From contig JAIQGI010000021.1 in assembly GCA_020072565.1 (NCBI GenBank), positions 62,001 through 126,000 of the forward strand: 64,000 nucleotides of DNA. Direction: 5' to 3'. The stretch comes from Terriglobia bacterium (GTDB lineage: Bacteria; Acidobacteriota; UBA6911). Position 1 is the first letter of the stretch. Each line of letters opens with the position of its first letter. Shown one piece after another: positions 12,357-23,834 of this stretch. The notes beneath the pieces were generated by a model. The model was not told where the DNA came from and made no database searches. It saw only the letters and a program-made list of their open reading frames with translations. Made by a program: the position numbers and the translations under genes.

Positions 12357-12752
12357 ATGGCGAGGAACAAATTCACCAGGCTCGAACTGCAAATACTGGA
12401 GGCGCTCTGGGTGAACGGGAAGGCCTCCATCCGCGAAATCCAGGAGGCGTTTCCCGAGCCTCGGCCGGCCTATACTACGATTCAAACCACCGTGTATCGG
12501 CTCGAAGGCAAGAAGGCCGTCCGCCGCGTCCGGAAGATCAGCAACGCGCACATCTTCGAACCGCTCGTTGCGCGCGATGTGACCCGGCGCAAACTGCTCG
12601 ACGAGATCCTGAGCTTCTTTGGCGGAAAGGCCCAGCCGATGATGGCGCAGCTCGCCGAAGCGGGAAAGCTCACACGCGACGATATCCGCGAGTTGGAGCG
12701 CATCATCAAGGAGCGCGAGGAACGGGAGCCCGATAAGGGAAGGAGGTCGTAG
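12357..12752 (+). CDS. BlaI/MecI/CopY-family transcriptional repressor
   Basis: 131 aa, ATG with AGGAGGG upstream. The N-terminus LTRLELQILEALWVNGKASIREIQEAF, followed by YTTIQTTVYRLEGKKAVRR, is the winged-helix DNA-binding domain of BlaI/MecI (described in parts), and the C-terminus is the dimerisation helix region. Such repressors are cleaved when the neighbouring BlaR1 peptidase is activated. Its stop overlaps the GTG start of the first BlaR1 gene by 1 nt, so the pair is translationally coupled. Operator at 12315-12331. Confidence 0.9.
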   Translation: MARNKFTRLELQILEALWVNGKASIREIQEAFPEPRPAYTTIQTTVYRLEGKKAVRRVRKISNAHIFEPLVARDVTRRKLLDEILSFFGGKAQPMMAQLAEAGKLTRDDIRELERIIKEREEREPDKGRRS

Positions 12753-14728
12753 TGATCGCCACTCTCATGAACCATCTCTGGCAGTCAACGCTCTTCGCGC
12801 TAGCGGCCGCGATTGCGGTGGCGGCGCTGCGGAAAAACGGCGCGCACATCCGGCACGGCATATGGGTGATCGCATCGCTGAAATTTCTGGCGCCATTCTC
12901 ATTATTAATGAGCCTGGGCTCGGCGCTGCCATCGTTCACGCAGGCAGCGGCTGTCATCCAGGACACGACGACGGCTGCCGCTCCCGCTTTGCCGCTCGCA
13001 GTCGATCGATTCGCGCAGCCGTTCACGGGCGATGACTTCGTGCCTGCGGCGACCGGGCGGGCAACGACAACAAACTGGATGCCGATGGCGCTGCTCGCCA
13101 TATGGACGATCGGACTGTTGGCCGTGGCGTTGGCGCGCCTCCGCGGCTGGCGGCGCATTTGTGCGGTCGTCCGTCAGAGTACGCCCATCGCGCTGCAATG
13201 CTCGATTCCCGTTCGGTCTTCGCCGGGCCTCCTCGAACCGGGTGTAGTCGGCATCCGGCATCCTGCGCTGCTCGTGCCGGCGGGCATCGAACAACGTCTC
13301 ACGCCTTCGCAGCTTAATGCCGTGTTCGCGCACGAGCTGTGTCACGTCCGGCGTCGCGACAACCTCACAGCCGTGATTCACATGGTCGTCGAAGCCGTGT
13401 TCTGGTTTTACCCGCTGGTCTGGTGGATCGGCGCCCGGATGGTCGAGGAACGCGAGCGCGCCTGCGACGAGTACGTGCTGCGCGCCCTCGGAGAGCCACA
13501 GGACTACGCGGAAAGCATCCTCAATGTCTGCAAGCTCTATGTCGAGTCGCCGCTACCCTGCGTCTCCGGCGTCAACGGATCGGACCTGAAGAAGCGCGTC
13601 GCAGCCATCATGGTCAATCGCATCGGCTCGCGATTGAACCTCGCTCGCAAGGCTGCGCTGGCGCTCGCGGCGATCCTTGCGATCGCGCTGCCGCTCCTCG
13701 TCGGGATGCTGACCGCGCCCATTGGCGCGTCGGCACTCGGCATGGCCCAAGATGTCGCAACAACGACGGGACAGTCTCCGTCCGCGAAATTCGATGTCGT
13801 CTCAATCAGAGCATGTTCTGAAGCCACTCGATCTGGGAGTGCTGTTCCGAGTACTACGCGCGGTCTCAGGGGCGGCGTGGCCCCCTGGGCGGCGCAGACA
13901 TCACCGGGCTATGTGTATTGGGACTGCGTAACATTGGCCCAACTGGTCGATCAGGCCTATGCAGGTAGCGACCATCCATTGCTCAACACCACTGCCGGCT
14001 GGCCGGGTTCGCCTTGGGATACTTCGTTCCGCTCCAAGCACGTCAGGGGCGGCCCCTCGTGGGTAGAAACCGACAAGTTCACGATCGAGGCCAAAGCCGC
14101 GGTCGCTATTACGGATGCAGGATTATCAGGAAGGCCAAGTCGGAACCTTGTAACGCTGCCCGGGGCCATGAGTCAGGCGCTGCGCGCTATGCTCGAAGAC
14201 CGATTCCAGTTGAAGGTGCGGCGAGAGCGGGAACAACAGGACTTGTACGCGCTGAAGGTTGCAAAGGGCGGATTGAACAAGCAGAAGATCACGAGCCCGC
14301 CCCCGGGTGACTGCATCACGATTGAGGAATACTCCGCGTTGGCCCGACAGGGGCGCGCGCCTGGAGACGAGCAGAGAATCTGCGGCCACATGCTCTCCAC
14401 GCTCGACCGCGGACTGATCTTCAGCAGTTTTACGCTGCAGAAACTGGCGGAGTACCTGTCGACCTCGATGGAACGCTACGTTGTCGACCAGACAGGACTC
14501 AACGGGCAGTTCAACTTTGTGCTGCAACTCGACCCGGATGACCACACGCGGGGTGATGATTTCTACATCAGGGCGCTTGAACGACTCGGGCTGAAGATTG
14601 AGACGACGAAAGGCCCGGCGGAGTACCTCCTCATAGAAAGCGTGCAGCGGCCGAAGCCGAATACGCCTGATGCGAGTGCACTCCAACCGCCACCCCACGC
14701 GCAGGGACCCGGGAGGAAGCCGCGATGA
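12752..14728 (+). CDS. BlaR1-type M56 peptidase fused to a TIGR03435 domain (copy 1)
   Basis: 658 aa, GTG start. The N-terminal half is a membrane M56 peptidase: hydrophobic helices near residues 10-55 and 110-125, zinc motif H194-E-L-C-H198, the following WWIGARMVEERERACDE segment and another helix at about 300-325. In classical BlaR1 the C-terminus is a penicillin-binding sensor; here it is replaced by a TIGR03435/DUF3738-type domain (from about residue 347, AKFDVVSIRACS) known mainly from soil Acidobacteria. The sensed signal is therefore probably not a beta-lactam. Strongly similar to copy 2 along its whole length. Confidence 0.9.
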   Translation: MIATLMNHLWQSTLFALAAAIAVAALRKNGAHIRHGIWVIASLKFLAPFSLLMSLGSALPSFTQAAAVIQDTTTAAAPALPLAVDRFAQPFTGDDFVPAATGRATTTNWMPMALLAIWTIGLLAVALARLRGWRRICAVVRQSTPIALQCSIPVRSSPGLLEPGVVGIRHPALLVPAGIEQRLTPSQLNAVFAHELCHVRRRDNLTAVIHMVVEAVFWFYPLVWWIGARMVEERERACDEYVLRALGEPQDYAESILNVCKLYVESPLPCVSGVNGSDLKKRVAAIMVNRIGSRLNLARKAALALAAILAIALPLLVGMLTAPIGASALGMAQDVATTTGQSPSAKFDVVSIRACSEATRSGSAVPSTTRGLRGGVAPWAAQTSPGYVYWDCVTLAQLVDQAYAGSDHPLLNTTAGWPGSPWDTSFRSKHVRGGPSWVETDKFTIEAKAAVAITDAGLSGRPSRNLVTLPGAMSQALRAMLEDRFQLKVRREREQQDLYALKVAKGGLNKQKITSPPPGDCITIEEYSALARQGRAPGDEQRICGHMLSTLDRGLIFSSFTLQKLAEYLSTSMERYVVDQTGLNGQFNFVLQLDPDDHTRGDDFYIRALERLGLKIETTKGPAEYLLIESVQRPKPNTPDASALQPPPHAQGPGRKPR

Positions 14729-14892
14729 ATCCTCCCACAGTCGTCATTGTCAGCCTGATGCTGGCGACTGCGCGAAATGCGCCGCGTCCGTCCGAAGCGG
14801 GAAAGCTCACCCGCGACGATATCCGCGAGCTGGAGCGCATCATCAAGCAGCGCGAGGAAAGGGAACCCGAAACGAGAAGGAGGTCGAAATGA
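14725..14892 (+). CDS. Chimeric small ORF: TonB-receptor leader joined to BlaI tail
   Basis: 55 aa. Its first 22 residues (MNPPTVVIVSLMLATARNAPRP) copy the signal-peptide region of the TonB receptor that starts at 16850. From residue 23 it continues in frame with the last 32 or so residues of BlaI (SEAGKLTRDDIRELERIIK...). It overlaps both BlaR1 copies through ATGA junctions. It is best read as the scar of a tandem duplication of a unit reaching from the end of blaI to the start of the TonB gene. Whether the peptide is made is unknown. Confidence 0.65.
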   Translation: MNPPTVVIVSLMLATARNAPRPSEAGKLTRDDIRELERIIKQREEREPETRRRSK

Positions 14893-16853
14893 TTTCCGCC
14901 CTCATGAACCATCTCTGGCAATCAACTCTTTTCGTGCTCGCGGCTGCGATTGTCGCGGCAGCGCTGCGGAAGAACGGCGCGCACATTCGGCACGGCGTGT
15001 GGGTTATCGCGTCGCTGAAGTTCCTGGTCCCGTTCTCTTTGTTAATTAGCGCGGGTTCGGCACTGACCGTGTTCAGGCCGCCGGCGGCCATCACTGCGGA
15101 CACGACGACGGCTGTCACGCCCTCACTGCCGCTCACGGTCGACCGATTCGCGCAGCCGTTCACGAGCGATGACTTCGTGCCGGCTGGCCCGATGCGCGCA
15201 ACGGCATCGACAACGAACTGGATACCAACGGTGCTGCTCATTATCTGGGGAGTTGGATTCCTGGCTGTGGCATGGAAGCGAATCCGTGACTGGCGACGGA
15301 TTTGCGCGGTTGTCCGTCAGAGTACGCCCGTCGCACTGCAAAGTCCCATTCCCGTTAGGTCTTCGTCAGGTCTTCTCGAACCGGGTATTGTCGGCATCTG
15401 GCATCCCGTGCTGCTCGTGCCGGCGGGCATCGAACACTGTCTTACGCCGTCGCAGCTCAACGCCGTTTTCGCGCACGAATTGCGTCACGTCCAGCGTCGC
15501 GACAACCTCACAGCCGCGATCCACATGGTCGTCGAAGCCGTGTTCTGGTTTTACCCACCGGTTTGGTGGATCGGTGCCCGGATGGTCGAGGAGCGTGAGC
15601 GCGCCTGCGACGAGTACGTGCTCGGTGCCTTCGGGGAGCCGCAAAACTATGCGGAGAGCATCCTCAACGTCTGCAAGCTGTATGTCGAGTCGCCGCTGCC
15701 ATGCGTCTCCGGCGTCAACGGATCGGACTTGAAGAAGCGCGTCGCGGCCATCATGTCCAGCCGCATCGGTGCGCGGTTGAACTTCGCGCGCAAGGCGGCG
15801 CTGACGCTCGCGGCGATCCTTGCGATCGCGCTGCCGCTCGTCGCCGGGATGCTGACGGCGCCCTTTCGCGCGCCGGCGCCCGGCCCGGCCACGGCGACGA
15901 CGGAACAATCGCCGCCGGCGAAGTTCGACCTCGTTTCGATCAGAGCGTGTTCCGGACCCACGCAATCGGGAAGTGCAGTTCCGAGTACGCCCGGTCTTCG
16001 GAGCGGCGCAACGCCCTCGGCGGCGCAGACATCGCCCGGCTACGTTTACTGGGACTGCGTGACGCTGGCCAAACTGGTCGATCAGGCCTATGCGGATAGC
16101 GACCATCCGCTGCTCAACAGCACCGTCCATCCGCAGCCGGATCCGATCACTCGTGTTTCGCGCCAGCCGAAGCGCGTAAGGGGCGGACCGTCGTGGGTCG
16201 AAACCGACATGTTCACAATCGAGGCCAAAGCCTCCGTCGACGTCACGGATGCGGGATTGGTTGGAAGGCCCAACCGGAACCTGACAACGCTGCCCGGGGC
16301 CATGAGTCAGGCGCTGCGCGCCATGCTTGAAGACAGGTTCCAGTTGAAGGTGCGGCGAGTGCAGGAACAGCAGGACTTGTACGCGCTGAAGATCGCGAAG
16401 GGCGGATTGAACAAGCAGAAGGTCACCAAGCCGACGGCGGGCGACTGCATCACGATTGAGGAATACTCCGCGTTGGCGCAACAGGGGCAGGCGCCCTACA
16501 TGCCAAAGATCTGCGGCCGCCTCCTTTCCGCGCACGAGGGATTGATCTTCAGCAGTGTCACGATGCATTGGCTGGCGGAGGTCCTGTCGTCATCGCTGGA
16601 TCGCTTTGTCGTCGACCAGACAGGAGTCGACGGGCTGTTCAACTTCGCGCTGCTCTACCCGGAGGACGGCCCGCGGGGCGATGAATTTTTCATCAGGGCG
16701 CTTGAACAGCTCGGATTGAAGCTCGAGACGACGAAAGGGCCGGCGGAGTACCTCCTCATCGAGAGCGTTCAGCGGCCGAAGCCGAATTCGCCTGATGCGG
16801 ATGCACTCCAACCGCCACCCCACGCGCAGGGACCCGGGAGGAAGCCGCGGTGA
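14889..16853 (+). CDS. BlaR1-type M56 peptidase fused to a TIGR03435 domain (copy 2)
   Basis: 654 aa from the ATG at 14889, which has a strong AAGGAGG 6 nt upstream. It has the same architecture as copy 1: membrane helices, zinc motif H196-E-L-R-H200, a transmembrane helix near 300-320 and a C-terminal TIGR03435 domain beginning AKFDLVSIRACS. The copies differ mainly in the linker and in the surface of the sensor domain, as expected if each now senses a different signal. No intact BlaI accompanies this copy, so both presumably act on the single BlaI upstream. The stop overlaps the GTG of the TonB gene. Confidence 0.9.
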   Translation: MISALMNHLWQSTLFVLAAAIVAAALRKNGAHIRHGVWVIASLKFLVPFSLLISAGSALTVFRPPAAITADTTTAVTPSLPLTVDRFAQPFTSDDFVPAGPMRATASTTNWIPTVLLIIWGVGFLAVAWKRIRDWRRICAVVRQSTPVALQSPIPVRSSSGLLEPGIVGIWHPVLLVPAGIEHCLTPSQLNAVFAHELRHVQRRDNLTAAIHMVVEAVFWFYPPVWWIGARMVEERERACDEYVLGAFGEPQNYAESILNVCKLYVESPLPCVSGVNGSDLKKRVAAIMSSRIGARLNFARKAALTLAAILAIALPLVAGMLTAPFRAPAPGPATATTEQSPPAKFDLVSIRACSGPTQSGSAVPSTPGLRSGATPSAAQTSPGYVYWDCVTLAKLVDQAYADSDHPLLNSTVHPQPDPITRVSRQPKRVRGGPSWVETDMFTIEAKASVDVTDAGLVGRPNRNLTTLPGAMSQALRAMLEDRFQLKVRRVQEQQDLYALKIAKGGLNKQKVTKPTAGDCITIEEYSALAQQGQAPYMPKICGRLLSAHEGLIFSSVTMHWLAEVLSSSLDRFVVDQTGVDGLFNFALLYPEDGPRGDEFFIRALEQLGLKLETTKGPAEYLLIESVQRPKPNSPDADALQPPPHAQGPGRKPR

Positions 16854-22040: not shown

Positions 22041-23741
22041 ATGTTGAGTTACGCACGACAGATGATTGCCTGCGTCATGACACTGTTTTGTCTCGCGGCA
22101 AGCCTGGGAGCCGCCCATCAGATTGGAACGGCCCAGCCTGCCACTCCACAAAGCGCGAAGACGACCGTTGACAACGCGATTGCGCTCTGGAACAAGGGCG
22201 AATTCGAGGCGGCGCTGGCCGAGTTTCGGAAGAGTATCGAAGCCGATGCCGGCAACCTGGCGCTTCACGCGAAATTCGCGAAGGCGGTTATGGGGGACCC
22301 ACGCGCTCGGCGCCCCGACGCTGCGGCGAAGGCGCTCGCTGATCTGCGGGGTCTCTACGCCCGCTGGATGACGGAAAACCCGGCGCGGGCAGTCTATCCC
22401 TATGCCGCTGCGCTGCTGCTGGATCGGACCCAGGCATCCAGGAAGGAACAACTGCTGCTGAAGGCGGCAGCACTGGATCGGAGGATTGTCGAGCCCTACG
22501 TGGAGCTCGTCAATCTCCACAGCGGATATGACGACGCGCTTGCGCTGACCTACGCGAAGAAGGCGCTCGAGATCAAGCCGGCCGACATTCCGTTGCAAGT
22601 CATGTACGCCAGAGTGTTGTGGTCGGTCGACCGGACCGCCGCGCGGCGATACTACGACGGCCTGCTCAAACGGGCGGCGGGCACCAAGGAAGGTGCTGTC
22701 GCGTTCCAACATTTGATCATGAACGTCGAAGACCCGGCCGAGACGGGTGCGCTGGTTGAACACTTCCGGCGCGATTTCCCCAATCAATGGACGCCGTCAT
22801 TCTATAAAAACCCCGATTTGTTCGCCTGGTATTTCACAAAGCAGCCAGAAAAGGGACTGGCATTCGCGACGGAAATGCTTGCGGCAGCCGACCAACCCCA
22901 ACCGACCGGAGCTCGCTCCCCGGTGAGCTGGTTCGACGAGCTCCTGACTATCTCCGGCGGCGACTTCAAGTCGGTTTGGCAGCGGATCCACGAGTACGCG
23001 CAGACCATCGTTGATGCGCAGAGCCTCATCCGCGGGAAAAAAGGCGCCGAAGCTCTTGCCCGGCTCGAGAAGGTCAGAACGCCGCTTCCCATTGAGGATC
23101 TGACACAGTTGACGCTGGTTCGTGCCCAGGCACTCGCCGTATCCGGCGATGTGCCCAAGGCGTACGAGATGCTGGCGGCAGAGTTGGAGCGCGAGGTCGT
23201 TCCCGAGTATCAGGAAGCCATTGTCAAATACGGGACGACGCTGGGCAAGTCTGCAAGACAGATCGACGCTGAAATCCGGATTCGCCGGGTGGCGAAGGCT
23301 GAGCCTTTCAAGGATTTCGACCTGTCGAAACTCGGAAGCCGAGAGCAGGTCAAGCTATCGGATCTCCGAGGCAAGGTTGTTCTGGTCGACTTCTGGTTTC
23401 CTGGCTGACACACTTGTTGTGTGGAGTTCCCACACCTCGAAGAACTGGTCAGGAAATACGGACGCAGGGGTTTCGTCATGATCACCGTGAACACGAGACC
23501 CGAGTCGAACGCCGATGGCGTCGAATTCATGGCTAAAAAACTCTACCACTTCACGAATCTGACCGCGGCGTCAAGCGGATGGGCGGCGAGCGAGTACAAG
23601 TTCTGGGGGGCACCCACGACGGTACTGCTGGATCAGCAAGGCCGAGAGATCATGCGGCACGTTGGATTCAGTCTCGCTGGCGTGCGCGCGATGGAAGCCG
23701 GAATCGACACGTTGCTGCGACAGGGAACGCGAACGAGGTAA
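22041..23741 (+). CDS. TPR-thioredoxin (TlpA-like) protein with in-frame UGA at the active site, probable selenoprotein
   Basis: 566 aa if the TGA at 23406-23408 is read through. GGAGG sits 5 nt before the ATG; signal peptide about 1-28. Residues 35-400 are helical and TPR-like. From about 430 a redoxin domain begins (KLSDLRGKVVLVDFWFPG), followed by the TGA (residue 456) and, in the same frame, H-T-C-C-V-E-F-P-H-L-E-E-L and a complete thioredoxin C-terminus. Family members have CxxC here; the TGA replaces exactly the first cysteine, giving UxxC. A hairpin suitable for SECIS follows. The alternative is a Cys-to-stop mutation (pseudogene), but the rest of the domain shows no decay. No selenium genes lie in the window. 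Confidence 0.7.
23419..23435 (+). promoter_or_regulatory. Candidate bacterial SECIS hairpin
   Basis: GTGTGG-AGTTC-CCACAC forms a perfect 6-bp stem with a 5-nt loop having G at its second position. The loop begins 16 nt after the TGA codon, at the lower edge of the spacing reported for bacterial SECIS elements. The 5' arm can alternatively pair with CACAC directly after the TGA. Confidence 0.45.
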
Positions 23742-23834
23742 GGCGCTCCGTTGCAGAGACCGCGGGTGTCAAGGGAAGGCGCGTATCGAAGCCCGTCCCC
23801 CACCGATCCCAATCAGGGCGGAACAGCGAAGTGG

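Follow-up and report, generated by a model that had tools for sequence, protein, structure and literature searches.

Results

A thioredoxin-like gene with an in-frame UGA

The DNA analysed here, referred to as the window, is a stretch of 64,000 nucleotides from a Terriglobia bacterium. On its forward strand, positions 22041-23741 form a single reading frame, whose sole internal stop is a TGA at 23406-23408 (codon 456, from translation of 22041-23744). Past this TGA the frame continues for 110 codons and ends at the TAA at 23739-23741. With the UGA read as selenocysteine (Sec), the whole gene (22041-23741, + strand) would encode a selenoprotein of 566 residues with Sec at residue 456. When the TGA was translated as Cys, this read-through protein matched Redoxin (PF08534) with 44.9 bits (gathering cut-off 26.6) and AhpC-TSA (PF00578) with 40.8 bits (cut-off 26), both matches spanning the TGA. 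The halves before and after the TGA, taken alone, gave none above any Pfam cut-off. Translation and the read-through matches confirm the frame proposed in the first-pass annotation, which runs from 22041 over the TGA to 23741 and retains an intact thioredoxin C-terminus. The GC content at the three codon positions is 0.66/0.44/0.72 before and 0.57/0.47/0.70 after the TGA, and such likeness on both sides is expected if the downstream part is coding. TGA also ends 15 of 25 other long open reading frames picked in the window, where it is an ordinary stop.

The UGA codon (23406-23408, + strand) takes position 1 of a UxxC motif, an assignment that rests on the occurrence of Cys or TGA in this column of the homologues, with 21 TGA against no TAA or TAG. 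The codon of the resolving Cys, residue 459, lies at 23415-23417 (+ strand), and its column is invariant in the family alignments. The active site reads UHTCC, so that an extra Cys (residue 460) directly follows the resolving one.

The genes before it encode a BlaR1-M56/DUF3738 protein, an outer-membrane beta-barrel protein and an acidobacterial VWA protein. At 12752-16853 two adjacent genes each join a BlaR1-type M56 peptidase to DUF3738 (TIGR03435). A conserved gene neighbourhood around the distant full-length homologues was looked for and none was apparent; function was therefore not deduced from neighbouring genes.

Domain architecture of the predicted protein

A probable export signal, MLSYARQMIACVMTLFCLAASLGAAH (22041-22118, + strand), was recognised by eye from its short N-terminus, hydrophobic helix and small residues; the helix (residues 2-19) has low confidence in the AlphaFold model. 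This model, built on a 10-sequence alignment (mean pLDDT 84), shows helical hairpins over residues about 36-419 (22146-23297, + strand), followed by a thioredoxin fold at residues about 421-566 (23301-23738, + strand). In Foldseek searches the helices matched TPR solenoids, among them SPINDLY and O-GlcNAc transferase, with large rmsd, and profile searches gave weak TPR-family matches in two homologues (L139 and L145). The solenoid stretch of the window protein itself has no Pfam match. The earlier designation as a TPR protein has some support from the predicted helical solenoid and the weak homologue matches, but none from a Pfam TPR domain in the window protein.

The second part is assigned as a ResA/TlpA-like thioredoxin domain from the Redoxin and AhpC-TSA scores and from structural matches to ResA, DsbE and CcmG-like proteins, with TM values reaching 0.90 of the target. 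In the model the first active-site helix of the thioredoxin fold begins at the redox pair, with residue 456 sitting just before helix 457-476. Taken together, the fold, the family and an N-terminus like an export signal make a periplasmic thiol-disulfide oxidoreductase the likeliest role.

The TGA column in other genomes

When 149 genomes of the phylum were searched with the read-through protein, some homologues proved to encode Cys at the Sec column and others to carry one TGA in its place. The alignment of homologues, which the first-pass annotation had suggested as a check, thus places the TGA at the first Cys of the family CxxC, as had been claimed. The pattern FWxxx-TGA-xxC-xxExP gave 21 matches in 18 of the 149 genomes (about 0.5 expected from base composition), and TAA or TAG at the same position gave none (about 0.9 expected). 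Two pattern matches in unusual contexts (L100, L101) were not counted as homologues, and L105 was left out.

A stricter pattern run over GTDB species genomes returned at least 119 matches, where about 3.5 would be expected by chance. In this wider scan, the 81 sites read in 80 loci all fall within frames that encode a thioredoxin-like motif and remain open beyond the TGA. By their labels, the records come from Acidobacteria, Planctomycetota, WOR-3, Armatimonadetes, Eisenbacteria, Krumholzibacteria, KSB1 and others, though individual labels could be in error, most of these records being metagenome bins. Five of the proteins, from records labelled Acidobacteria or Acidiferrales, can be aligned with the window protein along almost all of its length, the N-terminal half included, with 27-28% identity.

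A conserved hairpin downstream of the UGA

After the TGA come 10 nt, GTGTGG (23419-23424), an AGTTC loop (AGUUC in the RNA, 23425-23429) and CCACAC (23430-23435). We assign this segment (23419-23435, + strand) as a putative SECIS hairpin, since it is conserved, covaries and fits the bacterial SECIS (bSECIS) model in loop, stem and spacing. The 6-bp hairpin with a G in its loop and the loop at 16 nt, noticed in the first pass, is present as described. In the bSECIS model (PMC13188914) the stem measures 4-16 bp and the loop 3-9 nt, a G occurs within the first two loop positions, and the loop lies 16-37 nt from the UGA. The hairpin shows a 5-nt loop with G second, a 6-bp stem and a distance of 16 nt, the minimum of the published range. 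Single-sequence folding of the region was unremarkable (z = 0.24 against shuffles), so the hairpin becomes significant only by comparison among homologues.

The hairpin was always present with the TGA, both in the 21 phylum homologues, which take in five from the source genome (the window gene included), and at the 81 sites of the wider scan. At the stem offsets, 19 of the 21 TGA homologues pair 6/6 and the other two 5/6, whereas none of 32 Cys homologues reaches five pairs (maximum 4/6). In an alignment of 42 sequences drawn from several phyla, the stem is 96.8% paired (shuffles 80.0 +/- 1.5), and 51 cells are changed on both stem sides, against 17.6 +/- 3.2 in shuffles. Covariation scores 0.498, compared with 0.173 for shuffles and no more than 0.130 for the slid controls. 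The search pattern had fixed part of the motif in most of these sequences but imposed nothing on stem position 4 or on the outer 3' arm; the free positions still covary, base pair 4 being C-G, A-U, U-A or G-C/G-U.

Selection after the UGA and altered copies

Relaxed evolution after the TGA had been named beforehand as a finding that would speak against a selenoprotein. We looked for it and found constraint instead in 13 close pairs of Sec homologues, with dN/dS after the TGA of 0-0.25. This value was lower than that before the TGA in all but one pair where both were computable. The set holds no close orthologue of the window gene, and purifying selection is therefore shown for the family, on other members.

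Two 3'-end relics of the window gene, with 82-83% DNA identity, lie on contig C5 (L056 3515-3688 and 17027-17205). The first of them directly follows a paralogue of the VWA gene that precedes the window gene. They were rejected as further selenoprotein genes, being 3'-end relics that do not contain the UGA region. A full-length intact paralogue on contig C20 (L055 4626-6308), about 27-30% identical to the window protein, has Ser at the Sec column, encoded by TCA, which differs from TGA by a single base, and carries no SECIS stem. Both the relics and the Ser paralogue show decay or change among copies of the family.

Selenocysteine machinery of the source genome

A search for selA, selB, selC and selD in the same genome, also proposed in the first pass, showed that all four are present. 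The assembly (7.46 Mb, 98% complete, 3.8% contamination) encodes two copies each of SelA (452 and 451 bits), SelB (387 and 283 bits, cut-off 242) and SelD (396 and 353 bits, cut-off 125). One tRNA-Sec with anticodon UCA was detected with 73.5 bits by Rfam (cut-off 47) and also by ARAGORN. The two copies are 32% identical for SelB, 43% for SelA and 49% for SelD.

We thus observed two diverged full selA/selB/selD sets and only one tRNA-Sec (L061 6743-11947 on contig C19; L063 on C23; L064 on C3; L065 on C13). On C19 the sel set is clustered and its SelD has an AhpD-like C-terminus; on C13 SelD is preceded in one frame by a cysteine-desulfurase-like part. The SelB from C19 has closer relatives in G006 (40%) and G012 (39%), of the same family.

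Across the phylum, selB was above the cut-off in 17 of the 18 genomes with the TGA pattern and in 92 of the 131 others (Fisher p = 0.02); because most genomes have selB, its presence is a weak discriminator. The TGA-pattern genome with selB below the cut-off, G111, is 75% complete. Moreover, some of the 18 genomes yielded no selA, and every one of these is incomplete.

Further candidates in the same genome

Eight of the 23 AhpC-TSA places in the source genome, the window gene among them, carry one TGA. Four more TlpA-like genes have a TGA at UxxC and the same hairpin (L057 2944 on C100, L078 1749 on C72, L084 1749 on C26 and L090 1606 on C39). Three PrxQ-like genes have an in-frame TGA (L075 1624 on C20, L076 1767 on C8 and L080 1624 on C11), which lies at the apparent peroxidatic Cys (SG-U-T or PG-U-T); their downstream structures differ from the TlpA-like hairpin.

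Discussion

Overall, our sequence comparisons argue strongly that the window gene is intact rather than broken and encodes a selenoprotein in which UGA is read as Sec, and we put the probability of this reading at about 0.96. The suggestion of a candidate selenoprotein made in the first pass is supported by the sel genes, the TGA column, the covarying hairpin and the constraint after the TGA in Sec homologues. In the mechanism we propose, a SelB of the source genome, carrying Sec-tRNA(Sec), would recognise the hairpin, whose loop lies 16 nt past the UGA, and selenocysteine would be inserted at residue 456, as suggested by the machinery genes, the position of the UGA and the covariation. The product would probably be exported to the periplasm. 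There, to judge from fold and family, the Sec-His-Thr-Cys pair may act as a thiol-disulfide oxidoreductase cycling via a selenenylsulfide, while the TPR-like solenoid may hold a partner or substrate protein. The predicted structure thus points to a protein that is probably a periplasmic Sec thiol-disulfide (selenenylsulfide) oxidoreductase with a partner-binding solenoid.

One could argue that the TGA is a recent nonsense mutation, making the gene a pseudogene, or a miscalled TGC or TGT in an ordinary CxxC gene. The 3'-end relics at two places on C5 show that copies do decay. However, neither event accounts readily for a TGA that recurs in the same column, each time followed by the hairpin, in 21 phylum homologues and at 81 wider-scan sites, nor for a column in which TAA and TAG never occur and a codon-position composition that is alike on both sides of the TGA. 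We consider this explanation very unlikely.

There is likewise little probability that the hairpin is a by-product of the protein motif C-x-x-E-F/L-P-H and no SECIS at all. The stem overlaps this motif, and GAG-TNN-CC brings the inner G-G/C-C pairs along; moreover, the wider scan fixed part of the motif and the hairpin alone is not unusually stable. Yet the Cys homologues have much the same motif and no stem, the stem positions left free in the search pattern still covary, and the slid controls fail. Under a changed code, or with a suppressor tRNA, the UGA might instead be decoded as some other residue, such as Cys or Trp, and the open frame on both sides would agree with this. We regard it as exceedingly improbable: TGA otherwise acts as an ordinary stop in the window, the column is Cys and not Trp, and there is a complete Sec pathway along with a SECIS that covaries.

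Under the selenoprotein reading, a gene that annotation would call truncated becomes an intact one. Acidobacteria of this group appear to maintain a set of Sec-dependent redoxins whose SECIS class is compact and strongly conserved, and this class of the UxxC redoxins would be common to several phyla. Together with UxxC, the hairpin can serve directly as a search key, and the compensatory variants that occur in nature provide a ready panel for tests of SelB-SECIS recognition.

The presence of two sel sets allows a further, rather doubtful speculation. Two diverged Sec-insertion systems might share one tRNA-Sec, where one SelB would read the SECIS class of the UxxC redoxins (GG-AGUNN-CC) and the second SelB another class, for example that of the candidate Sec peroxiredoxins. 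If this is true, the gene studied here would be one client of a two-channel selenocysteine code. The sel set on C19 could also be contamination of the genome bin, for which a contamination of 3.8% is given. Among the papers searched, nothing was found on two SelBs, on Vicinamibacter selenoproteins or on TlpA selenoproteins of Acidobacteria.

Among known systems, ResA, TlpA and DsbE (CcmG) have the fold and the active-site place of the window protein (TM about 0.9 of the target), but they carry Cys where it has Sec and do not have the TPR-like half. Its scores stay below the NCBIfam cut-offs for ResA, TlpA and DsbE (46.6 vs 170, 44.3 vs 230 and 33.1 vs 123), and no NCBIfam model reaches its cut-off on this protein. 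Judging from the structural model, the window protein would work like ResA, TlpA and DsbE, yet it stands outside these named NCBIfam families. The ResA-like WAxxUGC selenoproteins of NF041054 also have Sec in a ResA-like domain; however, their spacing is U-x-C instead of U-x-x-C, and with 19.4 the window protein stays below the family's cut-off of 300.

Selenoproteins of Acidobacteria were already counted in 2006 (PMC1794560), and reviews of 2022 and 2026 (PMC9312934, PMC13188914) catalogued UxxC selenoproteins predicted for the redoxin (PF08534) and Prx-like (PF00578) families. With the predicted Prx-like thiol:disulfide oxidoreductases (UxxC/UxxU) the window protein has AhpC-TSA and UxxC in common, but it differs from this family, as known from the review tables, by the long TPR-like solenoid before the domain. 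No published description of a fusion of a TPR-like solenoid with a Sec redoxin was found in our literature search. The predicted redoxin selenoproteins have the same best Pfam domain and the UxxC motif, a likeness by tabulated domain and motif, as the tables (PMC13188914, PMC9312934) give no architecture. The window protein and these catalogued PF08534 proteins very possibly belong to the same broad family. Since UxxC selenoproteins of the redoxin and Prx-like families are already catalogued, the window protein adds to a known kind.
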